60,196 nucleotides of DNA from Acidobacteriota bacterium (GTDB lineage: Bacteria; Acidobacteriota; UBA4820; DSQY01), in the NCBI GenBank assembly GCA_021787565.1, contig JAJYLT010000022.1, positions 1 to 60,196 of the forward strand. Direction: 5' to 3'. Position 1 is the stretch's first letter. Every line of letters begins with the position of its first letter. A model generated the notes under the pieces. It worked only from the letters and a program-made list of their open reading frames with translations, ran no database searches and was not told where the DNA came from. A program made the translations under genes and the position numbers. Shown here one piece after another: positions 11,101 to 56,783 of this stretch.

Positions 11101-11241
11101 CGCGATGGAATTGCACTCGTAGGAGCGCCGCCCCCGGCGCGACGGACCGTACGCGGGCACCGCATCCTGGTCGCAGGGTCACCCGGTTCGCGGCGAGGCG
11201 CCGCTCCTACGCAGGCGTTGAGCCGCTATCGCGGAATTGGG
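11101..11241 (+). repeat. ~140-bp paired REP-like element, copy A
   Basis: The element starts and ends with GCGATGGAATTGC / GCGGAATTGGGG-like ends. Inside are two inverted heads, GTAGGAGCGCCGCC and GGCGCCGCTCCTAC. The left head continues into a hairpin GCGCCG-CCCC-CGGCGC. Near-identical copies lie at 46225-46365 (same strand) and 55643-55790 (opposite strand), and a decayed copy at about 36995-37095. It fills most of the gap between the lipoprotein gene and the zinc-ribbon/hemB operon. Confidence 0.85.
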
Positions 11242-19935: not shown

Positions 19936-20726
19936 AATATGGGGACACAATTAAAATATGGGGACACAATACTAATATCTTGACGAAGTGATTCGAAAGG
20001 CCATAAGATGGGGCCATGGCTAGGATCGCTCGGGTGGTGGCGCAGGGATATCCGCACCATGTGACGCAGCGGGGGAACCGGAGGCAGCGGGTCTTCTTCA
20101 ACGATGAGGACTACCAGGCGTACCTGGATCTGCTGTCTGAATGGTGCCTGCACGAGGGGGTCGAGGTATGGGCGTACTGCCTCATGCCTAATCACGTCCA
20201 TCTCATGGTGGTGCCGCACAGTCCGGAGGGGCTGGCGGGGGCCATCGGAGAGACGCACCGGAGGTACACGCGCCGGGTCAATTTCCGTGAGCAATGGCGG
20301 GGCTATCTGTGGCAGGGCCGGTTCGCATCCTTTCCGATGGAGGGGCCCTACGCGGTGGCCTGTGCGCGGTACATCGAGCTGAACCCGGTTCGGGCGGGTC
20401 TGGTGAAGAAGCCCGAGGCATGGCGCTGGAGCAGCTCTGGCGCGCACCTGAGAGGGGAGTATGGTGCGATCATCCGATCGCCAAAGCCCCTCGGGAGCCC
20501 TCAGGAGTGGGCTTCTCTTCTGAAGGGCGGTCTGGCAGAGGCGGAAGCCGAGGCGATCCGCCGCTGCGAGAGGACAGGTCGCCCGCTGGGCTCGGATCGA
20601 TTCATCGAGAGGCTCGAAGGACGGCTCGGCCGCACCCTCAAGCCGCAGAAACCCGGAAGGAAGAAGAAGGGAGAGGAGCAATAGGTATTGTGTCAGCAGG
20701 AGTAGTCTAATAGGTATTGTGTCCCC
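19932..20726 (+). mobile_element. REP/RAYT transposase unit with paired flanking repeats
   Basis: Left side: two adjacent 19-bp copies of TTAAAATATGGGGACACAA (19932-19950 and 19951-19969). Right side: two copies of AATAGGTATTGTGTC (20680-20694 and 20709-20723), the outer one extended to GTGTCCCC. Left GGGGACACAATAC is the inverse of right GTATTGTGTCCCC (with one extra base nearby), so the ends are inverted. The only gene between them is a Y1 transposase. The left boundary coincides with the stop codon of the upstream peptidase gene. Confidence 0.8.
20016..20684 (+). CDS. REP-associated tyrosine transposase (Y1/RAYT family)
   Basis: A 222-residue HUH-type single-strand DNA transposase. It shows QGYPHHVTQRGNRRQRVF near the N-terminus, the HUH motif in LMPNHVHLMV (about residue 66), and ARYIELNPVRAGLV with the catalytic Tyr near residue 123. 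WQGRFASFPM is also family-typical. The C-terminal basic region fits RAYTs. Such enzymes mobilise short palindromic REP sequences; here the flanking GGGGACACAAT repeats are its probable substrate. The motifs are intact, so it may be active. The last bases run into the right-hand repeat. Confidence 0.93.
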   Translation: MARIARVVAQGYPHHVTQRGNRRQRVFFNDEDYQAYLDLLSEWCLHEGVEVWAYCLMPNHVHLMVVPHSPEGLAGAIGETHRRYTRRVNFREQWRGYLWQGRFASFPMEGPYAVACARYIELNPVRAGLVKKPEAWRWSSSGAHLRGEYGAIIRSPKPLGSPQEWASLLKGGLAEAEAEAIRRCERTGRPLGSDRFIERLEGRLGRTLKPQKPGRKKKGEEQ

Positions 20727-24929: not shown

Positions 24930-25655
24930 GTGTGCCGGGCATGTTGAGCAGCTTGGGGGTGAGAGTCCCCTACCCAACCTGATGGAGGTGAAGGGTTAGC
25001 GAAGCGCAAGGGCCTGTCCCCGCGAAGGCGGGGAGCGTCACCGTGAGGTGGGGTCTGAAGGAAGCGTGGAGCAAAAGCGCGAGCCGATGAACAAGAACCG
25101 GATAAGGGGCCCATCTCCGCAAGCTGCGAAACAGCGAGCGGGAGGACCCTCCGGTGGAGGGTCCGATAGATGGGATTGCGTGAGCGCCGGACGAGCGGGC
25201 CACTAACCGCGAAGTCCATATCCATCAAGGGCGCGGGGCGTAAATCCGGCGGTTGCGCGCTGAAGGCGGCTGAACTTACCCCGGGAGGCCTGCGCCGTGT
25301 CCCGGAATTGGGACTGAGGGTGCCGTGAGGAGCCTTGATCGCGGTGCAGGAGTCAGCAGAGGGCATAGTAGGGGAGTGGTTCCCCGAAGGCCCGGACGGT
25401 GGGAGAGGCAAGTAGGACGCGGTCATGCCGGATGCAGAGCGGCGGAAAATCCAGGGTGACCTGGCCTTCGAAGCGGTGCTGGAGGGTGAAGCCCGAAGGC
25501 ATGTGGAGTGAAGGGCCGAAGCATCTGGCACGGGCATCGAAACCGAAAGCCCGGCGGGGACACCCATGCGGGTGTGACCGCACAACTCACCGAACCGCCG
25601 TGTACGGACCCGTACGCACGGTGGTGTGACAGGGAAAGCCCGCGAGGGCCTACCT
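24930..25655 (+). mobile_element. Group II intron RNA, class C-like, without intact ORF
   Basis: Starts with a GTGTGCC 5' end and continues through purine-rich domain I-III-type sequence. Domain V is clear at about 25596-25621. Its lower stem is CCGTG/CACGG, its upper stem TACGG/CCGTA, with a 2-base CG bulge on the 3' side and a CGC triad (25596-25598) in the position of the catalytic triad, as in known IIC introns. Just before the 5' end is a hairpin GGGGCG-loop-CGCCCC (24903-24921), the kind of site where IIC introns insert. No reverse transcriptase remains; only short broken frames are found near 25424-25510. Ends are approximate, the 3' end to within about 5 bases. Confidence 0.78.
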
Positions 25656-28845: not shown

Positions 28846-29193
28846 CTAGAAAAGGTCGAGGGCCAGCTTGAGCGCCGCGTCCACCTCCGCCATCTTGTGA
28901 GATGGCAGGGCCCCGGCGCGGACGCCTGGGAAGCGGCCGTGGTCTAGCGAGCGCACCTGAAAGGCGTAAAATACGGTCTCCATCCGGAGCCCCGATTCTT
29001 TCGCAAAAACCCGGACATTGGTGGGATAGTCCTTCCGGACGTTGGCGCCTTTGGTGCCGACGATGACCGTCACTACGAGGGGCTGTTCGTTGATCGCGTC
29101 CGAGGAAACCACGAGGACGGGGCGCTCGCATTCCTGTTCCCGGCCCCTTACGGGGTTCAGGTTCACGAAATAGATATCCCCGCGCCGGATCAT
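28846..29193 (-). CDS. mazF: MazF/PemK-type toxin (endoribonuclease)
   Basis: A 115-residue MazF-fold protein. The N-terminus MIRRGDIYFVNLNPVRG and ERPVLVVSSDAIN match the conserved Arg-containing core, and VTVIVGTKGANVRKDYPTNV is the typical central strand region. Known relatives cut mRNA at short single-strand motifs when the antitoxin is degraded. The ATG overlaps the antitoxin stop by four bases (ATGA), as in many mazEF pairs. All core elements are present, so it is probably functional. Confidence 0.9.
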   Translation of the reverse strand: MIRRGDIYFVNLNPVRGREQECERPVLVVSSDAINEQPLVVTVIVGTKGANVRKDYPTNVRVFAKESGLRMETVFYAFQVRSLDHGRFPGVRAGALPSHKMAEVDAALKLALDLF

Positions 29194-35243: not shown

Positions 35244-35510
35244 ATGCCCGAGACCGTGATCTTCAGCCTCCGCCTCCCGAAGCCCGTGAAAGAGAGCCTT
35301 GCGCGCCTAGCCCTGGCCACGGATCGGACTCAGACGTACCTCTGCACTCAAGCCATCGAGGAATACCTGGCGGCCCAGGCGTGGCAGGTGCAGGCCATCG
35401 AGGCGGCTGTTCGCAAGGCCGACTCCCCCGAGGCGCGCTTCATTCCGCATGAGGAGGTGGCGGCTCACATCCGCCGCCTCGCCGCGCAGACGAAGAAGGC
35501 GCGGGGGTGA
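35244..35510 (+). CDS. Ribbon-helix-helix antitoxin (CopG/ParD/RelB-like)
   Basis: An 88-residue protein. The N-terminal strand and helices VIFSLRLPKPVKESLARLALATDRTQTYLCTQAIEEYL match the RHH DNA-binding fold. The C-terminal basic/amphipathic tail would bind the toxin. The ATG at 35244 follows GGAAGGAG. A palindrome at 35206-35222 is the likely operator. Its stop overlaps the toxin GTG by four bases. First of four genes linked by 4-base overlaps. Confidence 0.85.
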   Translation: MPETVIFSLRLPKPVKESLARLALATDRTQTYLCTQAIEEYLAAQAWQVQAIEAAVRKADSPEARFIPHEEVAAHIRRLAAQTKKARG

Positions 35511-35815
35511 GGGTTCTTTGGGGGGAGGGGGCCCTGAACGACTTGGCGGAAATCGTCGAGTATATCGGTCAGGACAACCCGGACGCCGCCGCCGAAACCG
35601 CGGAGCGCATTCTGACGGTCGTCGGCCAGCTGGCCGACGCGCCGGCACTGGGCCGGCCAGGGCGGGTGCCCAAAACGCGCGAACTGATCGTGGCCGGTAC
35701 TCCCTACCTCGTTCCCTACCGAGTTAAGCGGGGAGACGTTCAGATCTTGCGGGTCTTCCACACCGCCCAGCGCACCCCTTTGCGGTGGGAGGGGAGGCCT
35801 TCGAGGAAACGATGA
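35507..35815 (+). CDS. RelE/ParE-family toxin
   Basis: A 102-residue ParE/RelE-fold protein (VLWGEGALNDLAEIVEYIGQDNPDAAAETAERI, then LGRPGRVPKTREL and TPYLVPYRVKRGDVQILRVFHTAQ). ParE members poison gyrase, RelE members cut mRNA at the ribosome; the tail HTAQRTP is closer to ParE, but this is not decisive. The GTG start overlaps the antitoxin stop (GTGA); the stop overlaps the ATG of the zinc-ribbon gene (ATGA). The fold looks complete. Confidence 0.87.
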   Translation: MRVLWGEGALNDLAEIVEYIGQDNPDAAAETAERILTVVGQLADAPALGRPGRVPKTRELIVAGTPYLVPYRVKRGDVQILRVFHTAQRTPLRWEGRPSRKR

Positions 35816-43294: not shown

Positions 43295-44845
43295 ATGGTG
43301 CGTCGAGCCGCTCTGCTGATGATATTGTTCCTGATCGCCCTGGGCATGGCCGGTGACTGGCCGAACCAGGATCTGCGCCCGGGCGGCGGCGACCAGGCCA
43401 AGGCCGCCGAGAACCTCTACCTCCAGGTGGCGGACCTGGTGGAGACCCGCGGGTACGAGAAGCCGCCGGAGCAGGATCTGCTCAGCGATTCCCTCGACGG
43501 CATGCTCCACCGCCTCGACCCGCACAGCAACTACTACTCGCCCCAGACCTTCAGGGACCTCATGGAGGACCAGGAGGGCAAGTTCTCGGGACTCGGCATG
43601 CTGGTGGCCAAGCCGAGCGCCACCTCCCCCCTCCTGGTGGTGAACCCCATCCCCGACACCCCGGCCTGGCGGGCCGGCATCCGGGCGGGCGACGTGATCC
43701 TCGAGGTGGACGGCCAGCCCACCGAGAAGATGAGCAGCCGCGAGGCGGTGCGGAAGCTCAAGGGCCCCGACGGAACCCTCGTGACCATCAAGGTGGGCCG
43801 AGGGTCGGCGCCGCCCGAGGTGATGACCCTCAAGCGGGCGCCCATCCCCAAGCACACCGTGCCCTACGCCTTCATGCTGAAGGACGCAGAGGGCTACGTG
43901 AAGATCAACACCTTCGGCCAGACCACGGCCGACGAGCTGGCACGGAACCTGGACCGCCTGAGGGATGAGGGGATGACGTCCCTCATCCTGGACCTGCGGG
44001 ACAATCCGGGAGGAGCCCTGAAGGCGGCCGTGGACGTGGCCTCCATGTTCCTCTCGCGGGGCCAGGAGGTGGTGAGCATCCGGGGCCGCTACGCCGGGGT
44101 CGTCCGGCGCTACGTGGCCTACAAGGACGGCGACTACTCCAAGATCCCCATGGTGGTGCTCATCGACCTGGGGTCGGCCAGCGCCTCGGAGATCGTGACC
44201 GGCGCCCTTCAGGACCACGACAGGGCCGAGGTCGTGGGCGAGCGCTCCTGGGGCAAGGGGCTCGTGCAGACGCTGACCCCGCTGGACAACGACGGCGCGG
44301 TGGCCATCACCACGGCGCGGTACTACACGCCGTCCGGGAGGCTGATCCAGCGAGACTACAGCCACTCCTACGACGCCTACTACTTCCCCGACGAGCAGCC
44401 CAAGGGGGTGGACGAGCCCGTCGAGCCCAAGCCGGAGGCGCACACCGATAACGGCCGCCCCGTCTACGGCGGGGGGGGGATTACTCCCGACGTCACGGTG
44501 AAGGCCATGGAGATCCCGGCTCTGGCCCAGCGCCTCGAGAGGCAGAGGGCCTTCCTGGAGTTCGCCGCCAAGGAGGCCGAGCGGGGGCACCTGGACGCGA
44601 AGTGGGCCGAGTCTCCCGAGATGCTGGACGCCTTCAAGGCCTACCTCGCCGAGCAGAAGATCACCTATACGCCCGAGGAGTGGAAGGGCAGCGAGGCCTA
44701 CATCCGCTGCGCCCTGGGCCGCGAGGCCATGACCATGATCGAGGGCCAGGCGGCCGGCTACAAGGCCATGATTCCCATGGACGTGCAGCTCCAGAAGGCC
44801 GAGCAGATCCTCCAGACCATGACCCGAAAGCAGAAGGCGGCGTGA
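43295..44845 (+). CDS. C-terminal processing peptidase (S41, CtpA-type)
   Basis: A 516-residue exported protease: signal peptide (ALLMILFLIALGMAG), helical N-terminal region with DPHSNYYSPQTF, PDZ domain (GLGMLVAKP...AGIRAGDVILEVDGQPT), and the S41 catalytic domain with LRDNPGGAL, the Ser in GSASASEIV and the Lys in ERSWGKGLVQT. It degrades or trims periplasmic proteins at their C-termini. The C-terminal about 120 residues are extra and helical. The start is uncertain by a few bases: a second ATG at 43285 is out of frame and nearer the GGGAGGGGAAGG site. It is joined to ffh by TGATG. Confidence 0.93.
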   Translation: MVRRAALLMILFLIALGMAGDWPNQDLRPGGGDQAKAAENLYLQVADLVETRGYEKPPEQDLLSDSLDGMLHRLDPHSNYYSPQTFRDLMEDQEGKFSGLGMLVAKPSATSPLLVVNPIPDTPAWRAGIRAGDVILEVDGQPTEKMSSREAVRKLKGPDGTLVTIKVGRGSAPPEVMTLKRAPIPKHTVPYAFMLKDAEGYVKINTFGQTTADELARNLDRLRDEGMTSLILDLRDNPGGALKAAVDVASMFLSRGQEVVSIRGRYAGVVRRYVAYKDGDYSKIPMVVLIDLGSASASEIVTGALQDHDRAEVVGERSWGKGLVQTLTPLDNDGAVAITTARYYTPSGRLIQRDYSHSYDAYYFPDEQPKGVDEPVEPKPEAHTDNGRPVYGGGGITPDVTVKAMEIPALAQRLERQRAFLEFAAKEAERGHLDAKWAESPEMLDAFKAYLAEQKITYTPEEWKGSEAYIRCALGREAMTMIEGQAAGYKAMIPMDVQLQKAEQILQTMTRKQKAA

Positions 44846-46182
44846 TGTTCGAGCGATTGACCGACCGCATCCAGGGCGCCATCCGCGGCCTGCGCGGCCA
44901 GGGGAAGATCACCGAGGGAAACATCCAGGAGGGGCTCCGGTCCGTCCGCCTCGCGCTGCTGGAGGCGGACGTCCACGTCTCGGTGGTGCGGGACTTCCTG
45001 GAGGGCGTGAAGACCAGGGCCCTGGGCGAGGAGGTCCTCCAGAGCCTCTCCCCCGACCAGCACTTCATCAAGATCCTCTACGACGAGCTCCAGCGCGTGC
45101 TGGGGGAGGGTTCGGCCCGCCTCAAGTTCCCCGACATGCCGCCGGGCATCCTCATGCTGGTGGGCCTCCAGGGATCGGGAAAGACCACCACCGCGGGCAA
45201 GCTCGCGCGGCACTTCCTGGCGGACGGCCACCCCTGCCTGCTCGTCCCGGCCGACGTCTACCGCCCCGCCGCCAGGCAGCAGCTCGAGACGGTGGGGAAG
45301 GCCGTGGGGGCCCAGGTCTTCCAGCCGGAGCCGGGGGACGGCCCCGTGGCCATCTGCAAGAAGGCCGTCGCGGAAGCGAAGCGCAAGGGCAGCCACAGGG
45401 TGATCATCGACACGGCCGGCCGCCTCAACATCGACGAGGTGCTCATGGAGGAGCTGGCCCAGATCGTCCGGGCGGTCGCGCCCCACGAGAGCCTCTACGT
45501 GGCCGACGCCATGGCGGGCCAGAGCGCCATGGCGACGGTGAAGGCCTTCCACGAGAAGGTGGACCTGACGGGGGTCATCCTCAGCAAGGCCGACGGCGAC
45601 GCCAGGGGGGGAGCCATCCTCTCGGTCAAGGCGGTCACGGGGCTCCCCGTGAAGTTCGTCGGCGTGGGCGAGAAGTACGACGCCCTGGAGGCCTTCTACC
45701 CGGACCGCATGGCCTCGCGCATCCTGGGCATGGGGGACGTGCTGAGCCTCATCGAGAAGGCGCAGTCCACCGTGGACGCCAAGGAGGCGGAGGAGATGGC
45801 CCGCCGCCTCAAGAGGGCCGAGTTCACGCTGGAGGATTTCCGATCCCAGCTCAGGCAGATGCGCAAGATGGGCCCCCTCGAACAGGTGCTCGGCATGATT
45901 CCCGGCCTGGGCGCCATGCGCGGCGTGGACCCCTCTCAGATCGACGAGCGGCGCCTCAAGCGGGTGGAGGCCATCCTCGACAGCATGACCGCCTACGAGC
46001 GCGAGCACCACCAGGTGATCAACGGGAGCCGGCGAAAGCGCATCGCGCTGGGGGCGGGGGTCGCCGTGTCCGAAGTCAACCAGGTCCTCAAGCAGTACCT
46101 GACCATGCGCAAGATGATGCTCCAGTTCAAGAAGACCGGGCTGAAGGGCATGCGCCGCATGCTCGGTGGAGTCGGGCGCTAG
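44845..46182 (+). CDS. ffh: Signal recognition particle protein Ffh
   Basis: A 445-residue SRP54 homologue that, with 4.5S RNA, delivers signal-anchor proteins to FtsY and SecYEG. N domain (MFERLTDRIQGAIRGLRGQG), G domain with GLQGSGKTTTAGKLA, DTAGRLNID and the SKADGDARGGA closing motif, then the Met-rich M domain (MGPLEQVLGMIPGLGAM and QYLTMRKMMLQFKKTGLKGMRRML). The ATG overlaps the protease stop (TGATG). No SRP RNA gene is in the window. Confidence 0.98.
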   Translation: MFERLTDRIQGAIRGLRGQGKITEGNIQEGLRSVRLALLEADVHVSVVRDFLEGVKTRALGEEVLQSLSPDQHFIKILYDELQRVLGEGSARLKFPDMPPGILMLVGLQGSGKTTTAGKLARHFLADGHPCLLVPADVYRPAARQQLETVGKAVGAQVFQPEPGDGPVAICKKAVAEAKRKGSHRVIIDTAGRLNIDEVLMEELAQIVRAVAPHESLYVADAMAGQSAMATVKAFHEKVDLTGVILSKADGDARGGAILSVKAVTGLPVKFVGVGEKYDALEAFYPDRMASRILGMGDVLSLIEKAQSTVDAKEAEEMARRLKRAEFTLEDFRSQLRQMRKMGPLEQVLGMIPGLGAMRGVDPSQIDERRLKRVEAILDSMTAYEREHHQVINGSRRKRIALGAGVAVSEVNQVLKQYLTMRKMMLQFKKTGLKGMRRMLGGVGR

Positions 46183-46224: not shown

Positions 46225-46365
46225 CGCGATGGAATTGCACTCGTAGGAGCGCCGCCCCCGGCGCGACGGACCGTACGCGGGTACCGCATCCTGGTCGCAG
46301 GGTCACCCGGTTCGCGGCGAGGCGCCGCTCCTACAAAGCGGTTCCGCTTCCACCGCGGGATTGGG
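46225..46365 (+). repeat. ~140-bp paired REP-like element, copy B
   Basis: The core differs from copy A (11101-11241) by about one base across more than 100 bases, then diverges after the second head. It lies between ffh and the kinase-TonB gene. Confidence 0.88.
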
Positions 46366-46379
46366 GCTCATCAGCGGCG

Positions 46380-46408
46380 TTGACAGCCCCATGCCGGGGT
46401 GCTAACAT
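46380..46408 (+). promoter_or_regulatory. Sigma70-like promoter of the kinase-TonB gene
   Basis: A perfect TTGACA (46380-46385), a 17-base spacer and TAACAT (46403-46408), 43 bases before the ATG. Confidence 0.6.
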
Positions 46409-46451: not shown

Positions 46452-49400
46452 ATGACGAAGAAACGGGTTCTCATCGTCGATTACGAGCCGAAACTTCTGG
46501 ACCGCCTGCAATCGCAGCTGCCGGCGGACCAGTTCGAGGTAGCCACCGCGCAGGACGGCTTCGCCGCCCTCGAGGTCTTCGACAGCTTCCATCCGGACCT
46601 GGTCTTCCTCCGGACCATGCTGCCCAAGAAGCACGGTTTCCAGGTCTGCCAGGAGATGGTCGAGCGCTCCGGTTCCCGCCGCGTCCCCATCGTCATGCAC
46701 TGCAGCATCTACAAGAGCAGGAAATACCGCAACGACGCCATGAAGATCTACGGCGCCGCCGAGTATCTGGAGGACCCGATCTCGCCGGAGACCCTCCAGG
46801 GCGTGCTGCGGGAGCAGTTCGATAAGAAGCTCGCGGCCCCAGCGCCGGCGCCCAAGACCGCCGGCCTGTCCGAGTCTCTCCTTCCCGAGGCTCCCGTCGT
46901 CCCGAAGCCGAAGAGCAAGGTGGGGTTCGACGTGGACAAGACCCTCGAGGACACTCTTTCGGGCATCAACCTGGGCCTCAAGAAGCCCCGAAAGCCCTCG
47001 GTGGAGGAGACGATTCCCGTGGGCGACCTCCCGCCCGCCGAGCGCCCCGCCGCCGTGCCTCCGCCTGTGGCCCCGCCGCCGGCTGAACAGGGGGTTACCT
47101 CGGAAGAGCTGTTCGGCGAGGTGATCCACGACGTGATCGAACCGGCCCAGGGCGCGCCGCCCGCCGAAGCTTCGGCGGCTCGGCCTCCCGCGCCAGCAGC
47201 ACCGCCCGCCCCCGCCCCCGGTCCCCCTCCGGCGCCGGCCAGGCCGGTGCAGGGGACGCCGCGCAAAATGCCGGTCGTTGACGTGGAGACCGCCCTGGGA
47301 GAGGGGCTGTTGGCCTCTCCCAAGGCCGAGGACACGGCGGTCCGGCGGATGAACGCCAGGAGCCAGTCCGACCTTAACCGGAAGCTGGAGGAGACCCTGT
47401 CCGGGGTGAAGCTGGGAGGCAGGGAGGCCCAGCGGCCCGCCGCCCCCGCGGCGCCCGCCCCGGCGCCCGTCGCGGCGACGACCGCCCCAGCAGCCCCGGT
47501 ACTCGCTCCCGAACCTCCCAAGGAGGAAGCGAAGCCCGCCCCGGCGCCCGTCGTCGAGCCGCCCCAGGCCCCATTGGAAGCTCCGCCGCCCCCCCCCGCA
47601 GCCCCGCCGAAGGCCGAGGCGCCCCAGCCCCCCACGCCCCAGCCACCGAAAGAAAAGGCGGGCGCCGGCGAGGAGGGGATCCCTTACGGCCAATACATCC
47701 TCATGGACAGGATCGCCGTCGGAGGGATGGCCGAGCTCTTCAAGGCCCGCCAGAACGGGCTGGAAGGCTTCAAGCGGATCGTGGCCATCAAGCGCATCCT
47801 GCCGCACCTGGCCGCCAACCAGGAATTCGTCACCATGTTCATCGACGAAGCCAAGCTGGCGGCCCAGTTGAACCATCCCAACATCGGGCACATCTACGAC
47901 CTGGGCAAGCTGGAGGATTCCTATTTCATCGCCATGGAGTACGTGGAGGGCAAGGACCTGCGGGCCATCATGAGGGAGCTCGAAGAGCGCAAGCGCCTCA
48001 TGCCCGTCCGCGTGGCCACCTTCATCGCCCAGAAGGTCTGCTCGGCCCTCCAGTACGCCCACCAGGCGAGGGACATGGACGGCAAGGCCATGGACCTCGT
48101 GCATCGCGACGTCTCTCCCCAGAACGTCATCATCTCCACGAGCGGAGAGGTGAAGCTCGTGGACTTCGGCATCGCCAAGGCCGCCTCCAAGGCCAGCCAC
48201 ACGGTCTCCGGGGCCCTCAAGGGCAAGCTGCTCTACATGTCGCCCGAGCAAGCCTGGGGCAAGGCCGTGGACCGGCGCGGGGACATCTTCTCCCTGGGCA
48301 CCGTGATGTGCGAGATGCTCACGGGAAGGAAGCTCTTCTACGGCGATTCGGAGATGTCCATCCTGGAGAAGGTCCGGGAAGCCAAAGTGGTGCCGCCCAA
48401 GGAGAGCCGCCCGGAGATCCCCGATGCCCTCCAGCGGATCATCCTCAGGGCCCTCCAGCGCGATCCCGAGCGCCGCTATCGGGACTGCAAGGCGATGCAG
48501 GCCGAACTTGAGAAGTTCGCCTACGGCGAGTGGGAGACGTTGCCCTCCGCCTACGACGCGGCGGCCTTCCTCACCGACATCTTCCCGGGGGTTTACAAGC
48601 GCGAGATCCTGGAGATCCTCAAGAGGGAGCCGGAGGAGCCCGCGGAAGCGGCCGCCGACGGAGGTGCCGAGGCCGCCGAGAAGGCCGAGGCCGCCGCCAG
48701 GGCCAAGGCGCCCAAGTCCGAGCGTGGGAAGTACGCGCCCGGAAAGAAGGAGCGGGGCAAGCCCACCGAACAGCAGCCCGCCCCGGAGGCCGCCAAGCCG
48801 GCCGCCTCAAAGCCCCCCGAGCCGGCCCCCGCGCCCAAGCCGGCTCCGCCGCCGCCTTCTCCTCCAACTCCGCCTCCCGCTCCCAAGCAGGAAGAGCGGG
48901 CGCCCGAGATGTTCGGCAGCATGGTGGAAGAGAAATCGGAGGGCGGAAAGAGAAACCTGCTCCTCTTCGGCGGCATCGCGGCCGCCCTGCTGGTGGTCGT
49001 GGTGGTGGCGATGGTCGTGATGACGGGGAAGAAGAAGCCCGCGGAGGCGACGCCACCCGCCGCGACTCCCGCCGCCGCAGCCGCGTCGGCGGAAACGACG
49101 GCCAAGCCGGTGGAGGCTTCGCCGCCGGTCATCGAGGCGCCCAAGTCGGCGCCGCCGCAGGCTGCCGCGCCTGCCGCGACGGATGCCCAGCTCGCCAGCG
49201 CCAAGCGGTCGGCCACGAGGACCCTCGGCGAGCTCGCGAATGGGATCGCCGCGCTGGAGAAGGGCGACGCCGGCAAGTATGCCTCGGCCTCGCTGGATTC
49301 CCTCAAGAGGAGCGAGGCGAACCTGTCGGATTCGCTGAGGCGGGCCAAGACCGTCGAGGAGTACCAGGCGGTCCAGGAGGGCGGCCAGAAGGCGCTCCCC

Positions 49401-49880
49401 CTCGTCAACCAAGTGAGGGACCAGGTGAACAAGGCCAAGGCGGCGGAGGCGGCGCAGGCCGCCGAGGCCGCCAAGAAGGCGGAACAGGAGCAGGCCGCTC
49501 AGAAGGCCGCCGAAGCCGCGCAGAAGGCGCAGGAGGCGGCCAAGGCTCAGGCGGCCTCGGCCAGCAAGGTCAAAGCCGGCGACTTCGTGCAGCTCTGGGC
49601 GGTGGACATGAAGCCGCGGATCATCCATTCGGCCCAGGCGCAGTACACCTCCTTGGCCCGCGCCAACCGGGTGCAGGGCACCATCTACGTTCAGGCGCAG
49701 ATCGACGAAACGGGCAGGGTGACCAGCGCGCAGGTGGTCCGCGGTCCGAAGCCCGACTACGGGCTGGACGAGGAGTGCGTGAAGGCGGCCATGAAATCCC
49801 GGTATTCCCCCGCGATTAAAGACGGCGTTCCTGTGAAGACGGCCATTACCTATCCGGTGGTGTTCAAGATCGGCCAGTAG
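46452..49880 (+). CDS. Receiver-like / Ser-Thr kinase / TonB C-terminal fusion protein
   Basis: A 1,142-residue protein with four parts. Residues 1-125 are a receiver-like domain in which the phosphate-accepting Asp is Arg54 (DLVFLRTMLP) and the conserved Lys is lost (YLEDPIS), so it is unlikely to be phosphorylated. Residues 130-410 are a Pro/Ala-rich linker with two copies of a (L)E(D/E)TLSG(I/V)xLG motif. Residues about 412-694 are a Hanks-type kinase with all catalytic elements (VAIKRI, HRDVSPQN, DFGIAK, SPEQAWG). After another Pro/Ala linker comes a membrane helix (about 835-857), an Ala/Gln/Glu coiled coil, and a TonB C-terminal domain (about 1045-1142, from RIIHSAQAQYTSLARAN). The kinase is cytosolic and the TonB end periplasmic. 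Confidence 0.92.
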   Translation: MTKKRVLIVDYEPKLLDRLQSQLPADQFEVATAQDGFAALEVFDSFHPDLVFLRTMLPKKHGFQVCQEMVERSGSRRVPIVMHCSIYKSRKYRNDAMKIYGAAEYLEDPISPETLQGVLREQFDKKLAAPAPAPKTAGLSESLLPEAPVVPKPKSKVGFDVDKTLEDTLSGINLGLKKPRKPSVEETIPVGDLPPAERPAAVPPPVAPPPAEQGVTSEELFGEVIHDVIEPAQGAPPAEASAARPPAPAAPPAPAPGPPPAPARPVQGTPRKMPVVDVETALGEGLLASPKAEDTAVRRMNARSQSDLNRKLEETLSGVKLGGREAQRPAAPAAPAPAPVAATTAPAAPVLAPEPPKEEAKPAPAPVVEPPQAPLEAPPPPPAAPPKAEAPQPPTPQPPKEKAGAGEEGIPYGQYILMDRIAVGGMAELFKARQNGLEGFKRIVAIKRILPHLAANQEFVTMFIDEAKLAAQLNHPNIGHIYDLGKLEDSYFIAMEYVEGKDLRAIMRELEERKRLMPVRVATFIAQKVCSALQYAHQARDMDGKAMDLVHRDVSPQNVIISTSGEVKLVDFGIAKAASKASHTVSGALKGKLLYMSPEQAWGKAVDRRGDIFSLGTVMCEMLTGRKLFYGDSEMSILEKVREAKVVPPKESRPEIPDALQRIILRALQRDPERRYRDCKAMQAELEKFAYGEWETLPSAYDAAAFLTDIFPGVYKREILEILKREPEEPAEAAADGGAEAAEKAEAAARAKAPKSERGKYAPGKKERGKPTEQQPAPEAAKPAASKPPEPAPAPKPAPPPPSPPTPPPAPKQEERAPEMFGSMVEEKSEGGKRNLLLFGGIAAALLVVVVVAMVVMTGKKKPAEATPPAATPAAAAASAETTAKPVEASPPVIEAPKSAPPQAAAPAATDAQLASAKRSATRTLGELANGIAALEKGDAGKYASASLDSLKRSEANLSDSLRRAKTVEEYQAVQEGGQKALPLVNQVRDQVNKAKAAEAAQAAEAAKKAEQEQAAQKAAEAAQKAQEAAKAQAASASKVKAGDFVQLWAVDMKPRIIHSAQAQYTSLARANRVQGTIYVQAQIDETGRVTSAQVVRGPKPDYGLDEECVKAAMKSRYSPAIKDGVPVKTAITYPVVFKIGQ

Positions 49881-49896: not shown

Positions 49897-50121
49897 GTGG
49901 CGACCACGCTCACCGACAAACAGAAGAAGTTCTACGAAGACGCCCATAGGCAGACGAAGGAAGAGATCAAGGAGATCGATGCCTCCATCGAAGAGGAGCT
50001 GGCCAAGGTGAAGGAGCGGCTCGCCCAACTTCAGGAAGCGAAGAAGGCGGCCCTCCAGATGCACGCGGCGGCCTGCATGAGGCTCAGCCTGAAGAACGAG
50101 TTCGAGGAGGAGAGCGAGTAG
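49897..50121 (+). CDS. Small coiled-coil protein
   Basis: A 74-residue, highly charged, all-helical protein (QKKFYEDAHRQTKEEIKEI and ASIEEELAKVKERLAQLQEA), ending in an acidic tail. It has a GTG start after AGAAGGAGGCGGCT, 16 bases downstream of the kinase-TonB gene, so it is probably in the same transcript. There is no signal or membrane segment. It could be a partner or scaffold of the kinase; that is inference. Confidence 0.68.
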   Translation: MATTLTDKQKKFYEDAHRQTKEEIKEIDASIEEELAKVKERLAQLQEAKKAALQMHAAACMRLSLKNEFEEESE

Positions 50122-50136
50122 GCAATTTCCGCAGCC

Positions 50137-50298
50137 ATCCAAGGTGCCCCGACCGGGGTGAAAAGGGAAGGCCGTGAAATTCGGCCGCGGCCCCGCCACT
50201 GTGAGCGGCGACGAAAGCGGCGATGAGCCACTGCCTCGGCAAGAGAGGTGGGAAGGCGCCGTCGGTAGGATGACCCGCAAGCCAGGAGACCTGCCTGA
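50137..50298 (+). ncRNA. Cobalamin (AdoCbl-type) riboswitch
   Basis: Contains GGGTGAAAAGGGAA, GCCCCGCCACTG, GAGCCACTG and the B12 box AGCCAGGAGACCTGCC (50280-50295) in the correct order and spacing. It lies ahead of the btuFCD and btuB-like genes and would switch them off when B12 is plentiful. The ribosome site CGGAGG of btuF (50369-50374) is about 70 bases beyond the aptamer. Confidence 0.95.
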
Positions 50299-50378
50299 GG
50301 ATGCCCGATTGGGTGGCCCCTCGTGGGAGGGGAACCGAACCGTGCGCCCCCGGAAGCCCCGGTCCATCGGAGGTTTTC

Positions 50379-51320
50379 GTGAGGCGCATTTGGCTTCTTA
50401 AGGCACCCATCTCCAGCTCCACGGCCGGCCGACGGTCGGTTCCGTCCGCCCGGTCTCGCCCCACCTCGCCGGCGGGGCTTCTCCTCCTCGCCGCCTTCGC
50501 GGTGCTCTCATGCACTTTCCTGGTGAGTTGCGGCGGCGGCCCCTCCGCCGCCCAGTCAGCCGTGCACGGCCGCTGGGTCAGCCTGTCGCCCAGCATGACG
50601 GAGGTCCTCTTCGCGGTGGGGGCCGGCCGGGAGGTGGCGGGTGTCTGCGCTCCTGCGAGCTACCCGCCCGAGGCGCGCGCGCTTCCCGCGGTGGCCTCCT
50701 GGGACCGTGTGGACGTGGAGGCGATTCTGTCCCTGCACCCGAAGACCTGCTTCACGGTGGAGGGGATGCAGAGCCCCGAGGTCCTGGCCACGCTGAGGCG
50801 GCTGGGCGTGCCGGTCCTGGTCTACCCCATGCGGAACCTGGAGGATCTCTGGCAGTGCATGATGGACGTGGGAAAGCGAACCGGCCACGGGAGGGAGGCC
50901 AGAGACCTGGTGCGCGTCCTTGAGTCGCGCGTGCGTGCTGCCTCCCCGGTGGGCGGTGAACCGAGACTGAGTGCCGTCGTCGTCGTGGGGCTGGATCCGC
51001 TGGTGGCCGCCGGGCGCGGTTCCTTTCTGGACGGGGTGCTTCAGGCGGCCGGGTACAAGAACGCCCTCGGCGCCGTGGCGGAGAGTTATCCGGCCCTCTC
51101 CGTGGAGCGGGTGGCCGCGGCGGAGCCGGCGGTCCTGATCATGCCCGAGGGAGAGATTCCCGCCGACCTCGGGAACGCCTTCGCGGCGCGGCTGCGAAAG
51201 CTGGAGGGCAAGCCCCTCCGCGAGATCTGGGTGCCGGCCGACCTCCTCGTGCGCCCGGGGCCGCGAACCGTGGAGGCCATTGAGGCGCTGGCCTCGGCCC
51301 GACGGGGAGTCACGCCGTGA
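50379..51320 (+). CDS. btuF: Vitamin B12 ABC transporter, periplasmic binding protein
   Basis: A 313-residue lipoprotein of the BtuF/FecB fold: hydrophobic N-terminal region with lipobox LVSC (about residue 50), then WVSLSPSMTEVLFAVGAGREVAGVC typical of the first lobe, PEVLATLRRLGVPVLV, and a second lobe ending LLVRPGPRTVEAIEALA. The GTG at 50379 follows CGGAGGTTTTC; the preceding frame lies in the riboswitch region and is not coding. Its stop overlaps btuC (GTGA). Specificity for B12 is inferred from the riboswitch and neighbours. Confidence 0.9.
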   Translation: MRRIWLLKAPISSSTAGRRSVPSARSRPTSPAGLLLLAAFAVLSCTFLVSCGGGPSAAQSAVHGRWVSLSPSMTEVLFAVGAGREVAGVCAPASYPPEARALPAVASWDRVDVEAILSLHPKTCFTVEGMQSPEVLATLRRLGVPVLVYPMRNLEDLWQCMMDVGKRTGHGREARDLVRVLESRVRAASPVGGEPRLSAVVVVGLDPLVAAGRGSFLDGVLQAAGYKNALGAVAESYPALSVERVAAAEPAVLIMPEGEIPADLGNAFAARLRKLEGKPLREIWVPADLLVRPGPRTVEAIEALASARRGVTP

Positions 51321-52279
51321 GGGCCCGCGAACGCTGGGCCCTGGGCCTGGCCGCCGCCTGCGCGGCGGGGACCTTCGCCGCGGCCATGACCCTGGGCCTG
51401 CCCGGGACGACCGGGGGTCTGGCCGCGCGGATCCTCTGGTCGGTCCGCCTGCCGGAGGCGCTCACGGCGCTCATCGTGGGAGGAGGGCTGGGGCTGTCCG
51501 GCCTCCTGTTCCAGCTCGTGCTCCGGAACCCGCTCGCGGACCCGTACGTGCTGGGGGTGGCGGGGGGATCGACCTTCGCCGCCGTAGCGGCGACGCTCTT
51601 CCTCGGCACGGCCGCCGCGGGCGGGGGCATGGCGCTGCGGGGCGCCGCCGCCCTCGTGGGGGGCCTGCTCACCCTGGCCGGGCTCATGAAGCTGGCCGGC
51701 GGCAAGCCGGAGACCCTCCTGCTGGGCGGCGTCGTGGCCAACACGGCCTTCGCGGCGGGCGCCCGGATGCTCACCGTATGGCTCTCGCCCGAGCAACTGG
51801 CCTACGTGACGACCTTCCTCGTCGGCTTCATCCCCACCCCGCCGGCGGCGATTCCGCTCCTGCTGGGCATTCCCTGCCTCTACACGCTGGCCCGGTTCAT
51901 GCCCAGGGGAAGGGGTCTGGACCTGCTGCTCCTCGCGGACGACGAGGCGCGCGCCACCGGGCTGGAGGTGGAGCGGGTGCGCCGCGAGGCCCTCCTGCTG
52001 GCCACCGTCCTGGCGGCCGCGGCGGTCACGCTGTGCGGCATGCTCGGCTTCGTGGGGCTCGTGGTGCCGCACCTGGCCCGCCTGACGGCCGGGCGCCGCC
52101 ACCGCGTCCTGGTGCCCGCCTCCTTCCTGCTGGGCGCGGCCTTCCTGCTGGCGGCACTCACCGCGGGCAAGCTCGTCGGAGGCTCCTGGCTGGCGCCGGT
52201 CGGCGTCTACACCAGCCTCGTGGGGGCTCCCGTCTTCCTGGTCCTGCTCGTCCGCTCCAGCCGGAGGGAGCTGCCGTGA
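51317..52279 (+). CDS. btuC: Vitamin B12 ABC transporter, permease
   Basis: A 320-residue FecCD-family permease with 8-10 membrane helices. Recognisable parts are RLPEALTALIVGGGLGLSGLLFQLVLRNPLADPYVLGV near the N-terminus and FVGLVVPHLARL near residue 245, which contacts the ATPase. The GTG start overlaps the btuF stop and the end overlaps btuD by four bases. It acts in the inner membrane with BtuD and BtuF. Confidence 0.94.
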   Translation: MRARERWALGLAAACAAGTFAAAMTLGLPGTTGGLAARILWSVRLPEALTALIVGGGLGLSGLLFQLVLRNPLADPYVLGVAGGSTFAAVAATLFLGTAAAGGGMALRGAAALVGGLLTLAGLMKLAGGKPETLLLGGVVANTAFAAGARMLTVWLSPEQLAYVTTFLVGFIPTPPAAIPLLLGIPCLYTLARFMPRGRGLDLLLLADDEARATGLEVERVRREALLLATVLAAAAVTLCGMLGFVGLVVPHLARLTAGRRHRVLVPASFLLGAAFLLAALTAGKLVGGSWLAPVGVYTSLVGAPVFLVLLVRSSRRELP

Positions 52280-53115
52280 TCGAGCTGAGAAGCGTCCACT
52301 TCGCCTACCCGGGAGCGCAGCGGCTGTTGAGGGGTGCCAACCTCGTGATCCGGCCCGGGGAAGTGGTGGCCCTGGCGGGTCCCAACGGGGCTGGAAAGAG
52401 CACCCTCCTGCGCATCGCGGCGGGTCTTCTGGCCCCCTCGGAGGGAGAGGCCCTCCTGGATGGACGGCCCGTCGAGAGCTGGTCGCGGGTCGCGAGGGCC
52501 AAGCAGCTCGCCTACGTGGCCCAGAGCCCCAAAACGCCGGAGGAGTGGCGGGTGAGCGAGATCGTGGAGCTGGGCGACTACCCGCACCGCGAGCAGCCCC
52601 CGGCACCGAGGCCGCTGGCCATCCGGCTGGAGGAGGTCCGGACGAGGCTCGGCCTGGCCACGGTCTGGGAGCGGCGGGCCGACAGCCTGAGCGGCGGCGA
52701 GGCTCAGAAGGTCTCCCTCGCGCGCGCCCTGGTTCAGGACACTCCGAACCTCGTGCTGGATGAGCCGGCGAGCCACCTGGACCTGGCCAACCAGATGGTC
52801 CTCTTCCGGAGCCTCTCCGAGCTGGCCACCCAGGGGCGGTCGGTCCTCCTGGCCACGCACGACGTGAACCTCTCGCGCCTCTTCGGGCAGAGGCTCGTCC
52901 TGCTGAACGGCGAGGGGATCGTGAAACCGATGCCGGAGGGGGCCGAAGAGCAGGGCCGGCTGTTGCGCCAGGCCTTCGGCGTCGCCTTCAGGCCCGTGGA
53001 GCTTTCGGGGACCCTCTGCTGGTTTCCCGATCCGCGTGGGGAGAACCCGGCGGAGGCGACGGCGTATTCAGGCGCGCGCGAGGACGGCGGGCCCAAGGGC
53101 CCCGGCGGACGATGA
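52276..53115 (+). CDS. btuD: Vitamin B12 ABC transporter, ATPase
   Basis: A 279-residue ABC ATPase. Walker A is GPNGAGKST, the Q-loop lies in YVAQSPKTP, the signature is LSGGEAQKVSLARAL, Walker B is NLVLDEPASHLD, and the switch His is in ATHDVNL. It powers BtuC. The GTG at 52276 overlaps the btuC stop. The last about 30 residues (GENPAEATAY onward) are low-complexity. The receptor gene follows after 121 bases and is probably under the same riboswitch. Confidence 0.94.
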   Translation: MIELRSVHFAYPGAQRLLRGANLVIRPGEVVALAGPNGAGKSTLLRIAAGLLAPSEGEALLDGRPVESWSRVARAKQLAYVAQSPKTPEEWRVSEIVELGDYPHREQPPAPRPLAIRLEEVRTRLGLATVWERRADSLSGGEAQKVSLARALVQDTPNLVLDEPASHLDLANQMVLFRSLSELATQGRSVLLATHDVNLSRLFGQRLVLLNGEGIVKPMPEGAEEQGRLLRQAFGVAFRPVELSGTLCWFPDPRGENPAEATAYSGAREDGGPKGPGGR

Positions 53116-53236: not shown

Positions 53237-55246
53237 ATGAGAGCCAGAATCATGGTGGCGTGCACCCTCCTCGCGGCGGCTATGGTCACCCCGGTGGCCG
53301 CCCAGGACGCGCAGAAGCTCCTGGAGAACTACGGCACGGTCGTCACCGTCTTCGGCGAGCGGATACCCGTGGAGGAGCGGCAGATTCTGAACACGGCGGC
53401 CGGCGTCACGGTGATCACGCGCGAGGCCATCCAGAAGATGGGGGCGACGACCGTCCAGCAGGTCCTGGAGAGCCTTCCGGGCGTGGTGCTGCACAACATC
53501 ACCGGCAATCCCGTGGAGAACAGCGCGGATCTGCGCGGCTTCCCCGACGGCGCGAGCATGGCCGTCTTCCTGGATGGCGTCCGGCTGAACGACATCCAGG
53601 ACAACAGCGTCCGCTGGGACCTCATCCCCATCGAGGACGTGGAGCGCATCGAGATCTACCCGGGCGCCTCCGGGCCCCTCTACGGCGGGGGCGCCCTGGC
53701 GGGCGTCGTGAACATCGTGACGAGGCGGGACCCGGGCATCCCGCGGCTGGACCTGAAGGGGGAGGCCGGCTCCTTCGGCCAGCGCGAGGCGAGGACCCAC
53801 GCCTCTGGCAGCTTCGGCCCCTGGGAGTTCTACGCCACGGCGACCCAGAGGCACGCCAAGGGCTGGCGCGAGAACGACGGCTACCGGCTGGACGACAGCC
53901 TGGTGCGCCTCAGCTACACCCCGGACCGTTCCAACCAGCTCGCCCTCCTCGTGAAATACTCCGGAGGGGCGATCAGCGATCCCGGCTCGCTGACGGCCCA
54001 GGAGATGGCGCGGAATCCCCGCCAGGACCCCTACAACCGCTACGACGGAACCCGCGGCCGGGAGTACCTGGCCAGCCTCCGCTACGCCTTCACTCCCGCC
54101 AGCGGCTGGGCCTTCTCGGCCCAGGCCTACGGCCGTCGCCAGGACCGCGACACCCTCACCACGGGCCGCTATGGCTCGGGCTTTCTCGGATCGGACCGGG
54201 AGGACCTCCAGGGCCTCCTGGCCGACGCGAACCGCACCTGGAAGCGGGGGCCTTGGACATTTGCCGCCTCGGGCGGCGCCGACCTCTCCTCGGGGACGGT
54301 GAGCGCCGACGGCTTCTACACCGACATTTACGGGCAGAACAAGCGTCCGGCGAGCCGGAGCGATCTCAGGCAGCACAACTCGGGCGCCTATCTCCAGGGC
54401 GACCTGGGCTGGGGTGAACTGCACCTCGTGGCGGGCGCGAGGACCGACCGCAGCGCCTACGGCTATTCGGACCTCTTCAGCGCCCGAAACGACCAGGAGC
54501 GGGTCTTCAGGGAGTCCACGTGGCGCTCCGGCCTGCTCTGGCACACGGGGCCGTGGTCCTCCCTCTTCCTGACTTACTCGGAGGGTTACCGCATCCCGTC
54601 CGTGGTGGAACTCTTCGCCTACCCGGGCTTCTACTCCAATCCCGACCTGCGCTCGACACGGGCCGGCGATTGGGAGGGGGGATGGCGCTACCTCAAGGAG
54701 GGATGGCGCTTCAGCGTGACGGGCTTCCGCATGCAGATGACCGACGAGGTGGTCTACGTGCTCACCCATCCCAAGCTCTTCATCGGCGAGAACATGAACG
54801 TGGGGCGCTCCAGCCGCAAGGGCGTCGAGGCGGAGGCGCACGTCCCCCTGCCGGCGGGCTTCGCCTTCCACCTCACGGGCTCCTACCAGGAGAGCGAGGT
54901 GACGGCCGGGCCCTACGCGGGACACCGCCTGCCCATGGTGCCCAGGGGCTCGGGTTCGGCGGGGCTCTCCTGGTCCAATCCGGATCTGAGCGTGGAGCTC
55001 TACGGCCACTGGGTCGGCCCCCAGCCGCTGGACAACGACCTCCTCAACCAGCAGCCCGACCTGCCGGGCTACTCCACGCTGGACCTGAGCGTGCGCTACG
55101 CGTACCGCGCCATGACGGTGCAGGGGACGGTCACGAACCTCCTCGACCGGCGCTTCGCCTCCCGCGGGATCACCAACGGCATCACGGACTACTTCACCCC
55201 GGCCTATCCTCAAGCGGTGCGGCTCTCGTTCATGTGGAGCTTCTAG
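53237..55246 (+). CDS. btuB: TonB-dependent receptor, BtuB-like
   Basis: A 669-residue outer membrane receptor. It has a signal peptide (cut near PVAAQ), a plug domain with GVTVITREAIQKMGATTVQQVLE, LRGFPDG, VFLDGVRLND and the GPLYGGGALAGVVNIVT closing motif, then a 22-strand-type barrel ending in the aromatic FMWSF. A TonB-box-like GTVVTVFGE lies near the mature N-terminus. Location right after btuFCD and the cobalamin riboswitch points to corrinoid import. Energy would come from TonB/ExbBD, not found here unless the kinase-TonB fusion takes part. Confidence 0.9.
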   Translation: MRARIMVACTLLAAAMVTPVAAQDAQKLLENYGTVVTVFGERIPVEERQILNTAAGVTVITREAIQKMGATTVQQVLESLPGVVLHNITGNPVENSADLRGFPDGASMAVFLDGVRLNDIQDNSVRWDLIPIEDVERIEIYPGASGPLYGGGALAGVVNIVTRRDPGIPRLDLKGEAGSFGQREARTHASGSFGPWEFYATATQRHAKGWRENDGYRLDDSLVRLSYTPDRSNQLALLVKYSGGAISDPGSLTAQEMARNPRQDPYNRYDGTRGREYLASLRYAFTPASGWAFSAQAYGRRQDRDTLTTGRYGSGFLGSDREDLQGLLADANRTWKRGPWTFAASGGADLSSGTVSADGFYTDIYGQNKRPASRSDLRQHNSGAYLQGDLGWGELHLVAGARTDRSAYGYSDLFSARNDQERVFRESTWRSGLLWHTGPWSSLFLTYSEGYRIPSVVELFAYPGFYSNPDLRSTRAGDWEGGWRYLKEGWRFSVTGFRMQMTDEVVYVLTHPKLFIGENMNVGRSSRKGVEAEAHVPLPAGFAFHLTGSYQESEVTAGPYAGHRLPMVPRGSGSAGLSWSNPDLSVELYGHWVGPQPLDNDLLNQQPDLPGYSTLDLSVRYAYRAMTVQGTVTNLLDRRFASRGITNGITDYFTPAYPQAVRLSFMWSF

Positions 55247-55642: not shown

Positions 55643-55790
55643 CCCCAATTCCGCGATAGCGGTTCGACGCCTGCGTAGGAGCGGCGCCTCGCCGCGAACC
55701 GGGTGACCCTGCGACCAGGATGCGGTGCCCGCGTACGGTCCGTCGCGCCGGGGGCGGCGCTCCTACGAGTGCGATTCCATCGCGGAATTT
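55643..55790 (-). repeat. ~140-bp paired REP-like element, copy C (reversed)
   Basis: The reverse complement of copy A over nearly the whole length, including the CAATTCCGCGATAGCGG end that copy B lacks. Confidence 0.88.
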
Positions 55791-55835: not shown

Positions 55836-55946
55836 CTTTTACTCTGTCCGGATTAGGATCCATTCGAGAGAGAACGGCGACTCGAGGCGGGGTCAAAGAC
55901 GGGAGGACGGGCTCGGCGGGAAGGCATTTCCCAGAGTCGGGTGTTT

Positions 55947-56783
55947 ATGATGACCTTTCAGGGCTCACTCAAGGAACTGCACCTGCCGGACGTCATCCAG
56001 CTCGTTTCCGTGTCGGGCAAGACAGGGTGCTTCCACCTCGACCGAGAGGGCGAGGCGGGCGCGATCTACCTGGAAAACGGCCGCATCGTCCACGCTTCCC
56101 TGGGCAAGCTCGCGGGCGAGGAGGCCGTCTACGCCCTCTCCACCTGGTCCGAGGGCAGCTTCCACTTCCGCCCGGGTGACGCGGCCCCCGCCCACACCAT
56201 CACCAAGAACAATACCAACCTGCTCATGGAGGCGGCGCGCCGGATGGACGAGTGGCGCGTGCTCTCCAAGAAGATCCCCTCCCTGGACAGGGTGCCCCGC
56301 TTTCAGGTCCCCGAAGGCAAGCAGGGGCAGATCAACCTGAACACCCAGGAGTGGCTCATCCTCAGCAAGATCGACGGCCAGGCCGACATCGAGACCATCG
56401 CCGAGCGGCTCGAGCTCTCCACCTTCGAAGTCGCCAAGCTCCTGTACGGGCTGGTCACCATGGGGCTGATCGTGCTGGACGTGCCTGCCCCCCGGCCCGC
56501 CGCCGGGGGCCACGACGAGGTGCTGGATCGCCTCCTCCGCCTGGTGGAGCGCCTGCGGGACGAGGCCTTCTCGGTCCTGGGCGAGGCGGGCAGGCCCGTG
56601 GTCCAGATGGCCTTCGCCGAGGCCGACCACGGGGTCCGCGACGGGCAGGGCACGGAGGCCGTGCAGCTCATGTGCCAGACGGTCATCCAGCACGCCGCCC
56701 AGGCCGGAGGGCCCGACATCCAGCGCCAGGTGGCCGAGCGCTTCCGGGACATCCTCTCCTCCTGGAACGCCGGAGCCTTTTGA
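55947..56783 (+). CDS. DUF4388 domain protein
   Basis: A 278-residue protein. The N-terminal about 110 residues match DUF4388 (MTFQGSLKELHLPDVIQLVSVSGKTGCFHL, IYLENGRIVHA, SEGSFHFRPG), a domain common in Myxococcota and Acidobacteriota signalling and motility proteins. A winged-helix-like part follows (LNTQEWLILSKIDGQADIETIAERLELSTFEVAKLLYGLVTMGLI), then a helical C-terminus. The start could be GTG 55941, ATG 55947 or ATG 55950; none has a strong ribosome binding site, and MTFQGSL (55950) best fits the family. Probably a cytosolic regulator. Confidence 0.82.
   Translation: MMTFQGSLKELHLPDVIQLVSVSGKTGCFHLDREGEAGAIYLENGRIVHASLGKLAGEEAVYALSTWSEGSFHFRPGDAAPAHTITKNNTNLLMEAARRMDEWRVLSKKIPSLDRVPRFQVPEGKQGQINLNTQEWLILSKIDGQADIETIAERLELSTFEVAKLLYGLVTMGLIVLDVPAPRPAAGGHDEVLDRLLRLVERLRDEAFSVLGEAGRPVVQMAFAEADHGVRDGQGTEAVQLMCQTVIQHAAQAGGPDIQRQVAERFRDILSSWNAGAF

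Follow-up and report, generated by a model that had tools for sequence, protein, structure and literature searches.

Introduction

In receptor kinases such as PknB, PASTA domains bind peptidoglycan and thereby sense the envelope, while TolA carries a small C-terminal domain at the end of a long Ala/Lys-rich stalk. In TonB, a Ser/His motif is essential for stator association and energy transduction, and it is conserved in TolA, as stated in the cited sections of PMC8928145. A protein with a different build, GltG, combines an FHA domain, a membrane helix and a TonB C-terminal domain (TonB_C), and binds the motor protein AglR (cited sections of PMC3169522). Here we analyze a gene for a single protein that joins a receiver-type domain, a Hanks-type kinase and a TonB_C domain, encoded on contig JAJYLT010000022.1 of an Acidobacteriota bacterium (assembly GCA_021787565.1; 3.47 Mb in 77 contigs). 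The whole stretch of 60,196 nucleotides is called the window. The kinase gene is followed by the gene of a small helical protein, sm74, and then by a cobalamin riboswitch and B12 uptake genes. We propose, with a probability of roughly 0.45, that the protein is a receptor kinase whose TonB domain acts as a passive periplasmic sensor or anchor, and that it signals together with sm74.

Results

Architecture of the kinase and its partner

The kinase is found in 118 of 396 Acidobacteriota genomes (E <= 1e-90) and sm74 in 137 of them (E <= 1e-5), hence the family extends well beyond what the window alone would indicate. We read in detail 70 kinase loci out of the 118 genomes, hand-picked to cover genera, plus the window. 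Counts over 65 loci refer to those in which sm74 was found (L125, L187, L188, L189 and L190 were dropped), and a set of 77 proteins also takes in relatives lacking the kinase and one probable non-member (L201). Near relatives in all these counts are not independent. The sample from the order of the window's genome comprises thirteen genomes.

The protein of the window consists of a receiver, a Pro-rich linker, the kinase, a further Pro-rich linker, a membrane helix, an Ala/Lys-rich stalk and TonB_C (Table 1). Eight further full-length orthologues of the order (47-89% identity) can be aligned with it over the whole length, and the domain order is unchanged in distant families, so that a chance open reading frame (ORF) or a frameshift can be rejected. 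The catalytic Lys, Glu, Arg-Asp, Asn and DFG are invariant in all 70 loci and, by these residues, the kinase is predicted to be of the active type. An initial annotation, made from the sequence of the window, had described one protein with receiver-like, intact kinase and TonB domains, and the Pfam matches, the catalytic residues, the single membrane helix and the orthologues bear it out. Its receiver-like part does match the receiver profile, but it is degenerate, with an Arg at the phospho-acceptor position and an Asp at that of the active-site Lys. Across the family, the phospho-acceptor Asp is present in 3 and lost in 56 of the 59 readable members (60 rows, one with a gap), mostly to Ser, Arg or Thr. 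Judged by these residues, the receiver is incapable of the normal phospho-switch role.

Two motifs persist in a Pro-rich linker that is otherwise variable. Using patterns written post hoc, when the alignment had already been seen, the LEETLSG type occurs in 46 of 62 linkers (mean of 0.08 in shuffled linkers) and the TSEELFGDVI type in 43 of 62 (mean of 0.005). By their resemblance, they are putative docking or phosphorylation sites. At the other end of the protein, TonB_C is preceded in many family members by a VKxGDxV stretch with a nearly invariant Gly and second Val.

The constant neighbour of the kinase across the family is sm74, which follows it on the same strand, within 3 kb past the end of the kinase profile match, in 104 of the 118 kinase genomes. 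It is present in 11 of the 13 genomes of the order. Its model is a single predicted helix (residues 7-63) with a predicted local distance difference test score (pLDDT) of 92. The protein could not be assigned to a known family, since it has no match in NCBIfam and its Pfam matches are below cut-off; matches to PDB profiles are weak (best E of 0.023), mostly with helical or coiled-coil chains. We also discarded Thr20 of sm74 as a universal substrate of the kinase, as this residue is not kept in all families.

A predicted TonB fold in a protein whose membrane helix lacks the TonB/TolA histidine

The predicted model of TonB_C (AlphaFold2, 52 sequences) has a mean pLDDT of 92 and matches TonB bound to FoxA (Z of 11.2) and TonB bound to BtuB (Z of 10.0). 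TolA was also considered and is the weaker match (Z of 6.1 at best); at an E of 0.01, Pfam gives no match of the kinase protein to TolA. All 16 PDB profile matches of the domain are to TonB, one of them in a TonB-ferredoxin fusion. By profile and predicted fold, the C-terminal domain is thus of the TonB type, on a point where a better fit to another fold had been named as speaking against the initial annotation.

The same annotation suggested a mechanical coupling of the TonB kind, which normally involves ExbB/ExbD, and here our results do not support it. The helix lies in the middle of the protein, and none of the 72 helices found among the 77 family proteins has a histidine. We read the kinase as not energized because the motif that includes this residue is essential for stator association (PMC8928145, sections cited). 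The genome of the window has nine TonB_C matches. In four ordinary TonB/TolA-like proteins the helix is N-terminal and carries the His, and one of these TonB proteins (C18) is encoded directly upstream of exbB and exbD, whereas the helices of the window's kinase, of a pseudokinase-TonB_C paralogue and of a zinc-ribbon-TonB_C protein lack such a His. The two exbB matches of the genome are on contigs other than that of the kinase. Mechanical coupling through ExbB/ExbD is therefore unlikely, as far as these sequences tell.

The pseudokinase paralogue (G000:C37, L046:9221-11158) consists of a pseudokinase, a transmembrane helix and TonB_C, and has relatives in the order. All 12 paralogues of this kind that were sampled from the order have lost the catalytic Lys, Asp and DFG (in L039 the sequence is cut ahead of the Lys), and in some of these relatives the gene adjoins one that we take to encode a glutamine-synthetase-like protein. 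The paralogue has a C-terminal sequence in common with the active kinase, and the two may pair. The zinc-ribbon protein (G000:C48, L090:828-2954; 708 residues) has a zinc-ribbon-like N-terminus, identified by eye, a membrane helix, TonB_C and a further C-terminal part. In another observation on TonB genes, some families (L181 and others) have an exbB-exbD-exbD-tonB operon oriented divergently from the kinase-sm74 pair.

A scan of genome contigs with a TonB_C pattern, whose reach is limited to close relatives, returned 12 loci of the window's lineage, one of Desulfuromonadales (28% identity) and 13 of acetic acid bacteria (35-39% identity). The receiver-kinase-TonB_C architecture had no description in the literature that we searched on the kinase, the TonB domain and Acidobacteria, which mostly excluded subscription journals; PMC3174227, in the sections cited, mentions kinases and receptors separately.

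Association with B12 uptake genes

In both families of the order, and as far as contigs reach, we found the same block: S41 peptidase, ffh, kinase, sm74, cobalamin riboswitch, btuF, btuC, btuD and receptor. The riboswitch is present in all 10 loci of the order with sequence past sm74 (the window, eight further loci and L045). In six genomes of the order that were searched, 6 of 7 cobalamin riboswitches are at the kinase-sm74 place, and in the genome of the window no other was found. The initial annotation had placed the kinase one small gene before the riboswitch and the receptor. The riboswitch does start 4 nt past the sm74 gene, ahead of btuF, but the receptor is the fourth gene of the riboswitch operon and not the next one. 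The btuF ORF overlaps the riboswitch, hence its true start is probably downstream. The receptor contains TVVTV at 53336, which we take to be a TonB-box-like motif.

Besides the window, 20 of the 65 kinase-sm74 loci, inside and outside the order, have btuF and 19 have btuC. The corresponding count is 0 in 26 control loci taken around other TonB_C genes (332 kb of control loci for 953 kb of kinase-sm74 loci). Nine of the 20 btuF loci are from the window's order and the rest are in families f25, f33, f66, f76 and f78. In all 20, sm74 and btuF are on the same strand; outside the order, the btuF homology begins -34 to 302 nt past the sm74 stop. The conservation of the neighbourhood, on which the initial annotation also relied, is thus confirmed in the order, and btuF and btuC recur in five distant families. 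The riboswitch itself was rejected as a general feature of the module: at the Rfam gathering score, none of 11 btu-linked loci from beyond the order has it, and none of 7 loci without the link. On the kinase tree, leaving out cut contigs, the btu label changes at least 4 times and occupies two separate clades. Such a distribution implies either an ancient link with frequent losses or repeated gains. G039, G051 and G063 have their riboswitch at another place, next to a receptor-like gene; the stretch read there contains neither btuF nor btuC, a pattern that would fit the kinase-linked transporter being the B12 one. As the seven proteins scanned reach 75-123 bits with the NCBIfam BtuF model, short of its cut-off of 234, B12 is the presumed substrate of the btuF-like proteins. 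At the level of gene order, the tie to B12 thus exists in one part of the phylum. The BtuB-like receptor, which the initial annotation suggested as partner, may be read by the kinase; over the family, the constant neighbour is sm74.

Other features of the window

The coordinates of the features are listed in Table 1. The initial annotation had given the kinase gene its own strong promoter. A promoter-like site is indeed present (10 of 12 positions; one found for 0.3 expected). The label ffh is putative and taken from the family of the protein.

A palindromic repeat of ~92 bp with GTAGGAGCGSCGCC ends is found at 46243-46334, 11119-11210 and 55675-55766, the first copy being immediately 5' of the promoter-like site. 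Its pattern occurs 305 times in the genome, the reversed pattern 57 times. The gene of an IS200-like (Y1) transposase (20016-20684) may be related to this repeat; REP-RAYT pairs are a precedent for the association of a transposase with palindromic repeats. The window also has a tandem pair of group II intron domain matches (25037-25392), and genes for PemK/MazF-like (28846-29193) and ParE-like (35507-35815) toxins, each adjoined by a small gene. A DUF4388 protein (Pfam) is encoded at 55941-56783, and a relative of it is near the kinase in 10 of the 65 loci, mostly in distant families.

Table 1. Features of the kinase-sm74 locus in the window (aa, amino acids of the kinase protein)
Feature	Position	Strand	Basis
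S41 (C-terminal processing) peptidase	43295..44845	+	PF03572; upstream neighbour conserved in order
ffh (signal recognition particle protein)	44845..46182	+	upstream neighbour conserved in order
Sigma-70-type promoter-like site TTGACA-17-TAACAT, upstream of kinase gene	46380..46408	+	pattern scan
Kinase ORF (degenerate receiver, kinase, transmembrane helix, TonB_C; 1142 aa, ATG start)	46452..49880	+	ORF, Pfam, orthologue alignment
Degenerate receiver domain, aa 6-117	46467..46802	+	PF00072, 57 bits (cut-off 30.2)
Linker motif LEDTLSG, first copy, aa 165-171	46944..46964	+	alignment
Linker motif TSEELFGEVI, aa 216-225	47097..47126	+	alignment
Linker motif LEETLSG, second copy, aa 312-318	47385..47405	+	alignment
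Hanks-type kinase domain, aa 421-683	47712..48500	+	PF00069, 136 bits
Single transmembrane helix without histidine, aa 836-857	48957..49022	+	sequence
Predicted periplasmic stalk, Ala/Lys/Glu-rich, coiled-coil-like, aa 858-1039	49023..49568	+	sequence; topology inferred
TonB C-terminal domain, aa 1062-1140, preceded by VKAGDFV (aa 1040-1046)	49635..49871	+	PF03544, 53.5 bits (cut-off 24.6)
sm74, helical partner protein of 74 residues, without known family	49897..50121	+	neighbour counts; structure prediction
Cobalamin riboswitch	50125..50312	+	RF00174, 120.8 bits
btuF-like substrate-binding protein	50301..51320	+	PF01497; NCBIfam BtuF, 75 bits (below cut-off 234)
btuC-like permease	51317..52279	+	PF01032, 214 bits
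btuD-like ATPase	52276..53115	+	position kept in orthologous loci; translation
btuB-like TonB-dependent receptor	53237..55246 (start about 53237)	+	PF00593 and PF07715

Discussion

A proposed sensor kinase and its rivals

The protein would be a receptor kinase with a single membrane pass, of a kind typical of many Acidobacteriota, and would expose its TonB tip in the periplasm, where ExbB/ExbD would not pull it. The tip would bind an exposed beta-strand peptide, like TonB on a TonB box, or another envelope partner. Binding would gather or shift kinases, leading to autophosphorylation and to the phosphorylation of cytosolic targets. The receiver and the linker motifs could be docking sites, plausibly for sm74, which would in turn regulate or relay the signal. 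In the window's order, the likeliest periplasmic partner would be the B12 uptake machinery encoded next to the kinase. This last step, with the B12 receptor as the input, is the weakest.

Several observations weigh against this interpretation. Genes that we take, from their sequences, to be exbB are found in 10 of the 65 loci (exbD in 8), where exbB is near the kinase in families other than those of the order. The precedent of GltG, which binds AglR, suggests that TonB proteins with a helix in the middle can be energized (PMC3169522, in the sections cited). There is no btuF nearby in 45 of the 65 loci. Finally, the receiver, kinase and TonB_C are found together in 49 of the 77 proteins. Eight f23 loci have the kinase, the helix and sm74, with neither receiver nor TonB_C at the threshold used, three f38 loci have the kinase and sm74 with the helix absent too, and L195, L197 and L198 have a receiver, TonB_C and sm74 with the kinase absent. 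In L184, a separate receiver gene is just upstream. Given these losses, no single domain is essential family-wide, and the variants describe a module that is reshuffled around sm74. Its core function is probably that of the kinase and sm74, because the TonB tip can be lost while both stay, and this tip is probably one of several possible inputs.

The module could alternatively sense the state of the envelope or cell wall, with the TonB tip binding peptidoglycan or a general envelope protein, and the B12 or accD-folC genes being inherited gene order. The neighbours in other families are of the housekeeping type, as genes that we take to be accD and folC are found in 29 and 30 of the 65 loci, respectively. 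TonB_C is dispensable, and the zinc-ribbon and pseudokinase proteins of the genome point to its general use as an adaptor. SjdR, once annotated as TonB, shapes the septal cell wall, although its authors find no TonB-like periplasmic domain (PMC8262864, in the sections cited). We nevertheless hold this explanation to be somewhat unlikely: the btuFCD link is tight outside the order and was kept or arose in two clades, and the fold is nearest to receptor-binding TonB. Another scheme, which we regard as unlikely, would have the unenergized tip sample the TonB boxes of ligand-loaded outer-membrane receptors, so that the kinase gauges the cargo (here B12) and reports via sm74, alongside the energized TonB.

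A true TonB variant, in which ExbB/ExbD would drive the opening of the B12 receptor and the fused kinase would report on the transport cycle, would account for the TonB fold and the B12 neighbourhood, and has on its side the exbB and exbD genes at some loci and the GltG precedent. The helices without His, the genome's own TonB-ExbB-ExbD operon and the many loci missing btuF make it quite improbable, as does the general lack of a cytoplasmic domain in TonB proteins (PMC8262864, in the sections cited). A part in a trans-envelope machine like Agl-Glt of Myxococcus, in which an ExbB-like motor pulls a TonB_C protein with cytosolic regulatory domains, is very improbable: despite the build of GltG, its binding to AglR (PMC3169522, in part) and the score of the paralogue with the AgmX/PglI tail model, weak at 26 bits for a cut-off of 40, the kinase protein has no FHA domain in Pfam and no glt-like gene was found among six window proteins scanned, which was not a systematic search for glt genes.

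Comparison with known systems

If our proposal of a passive TonB-tipped sensor kinase is true, a module with its kinase in 118 of 396 sampled genomes would receive its first function, and what the kinase signals to the inside of the cell may be nutrient uptake or the state of the envelope. Kinase, pseudokinase and zinc-ribbon proteins apparently all use TonB_C as an adaptor, and naming a protein an energy transducer from a TonB_C match alone is therefore probably misleading. The kinase protein resembles TonB energy transducers in its C-terminal domain, by Pfam, PDB profile and fold, but differs from them by the position of the helix and its lack of His, by the fused kinase and receiver, and by an exbB located on other contigs. 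Of GltG/PglI and GltJ/AgmX of Myxococcus gliding, GltG has a comparable build, a cytosolic signalling domain followed by a helix and TonB_C; however, GltG has FHA in place of receiver and kinase, is part of a gliding machine, and is given no link to sm74 or B12 genes in the cited sections of PMC3169522. The long Ala/Lys-rich stalk ahead of a small C-terminal domain recalls TolA, unlike the fold, matched at a Z of 6.1 and below, and the helix without His. With PASTA-type receptor kinases (PknB/Stk1), whose NCBIfam model scores highest over the kinase (295 bits, short of its cut-off of 450), the protein shares a Hanks kinase, one helix and an extracytoplasmic part; it differs in having TonB_C where Pfam finds no PASTA, an N-terminal receiver and a long Pro-rich linker. 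Outer-membrane uptake signals inward through anti-sigma routes of the FecA-FecR kind, and a Ser/Thr kinase with a TonB tip would, if our reading is right, be another inward route, from outer-membrane uptake to cytosolic phosphorylation.

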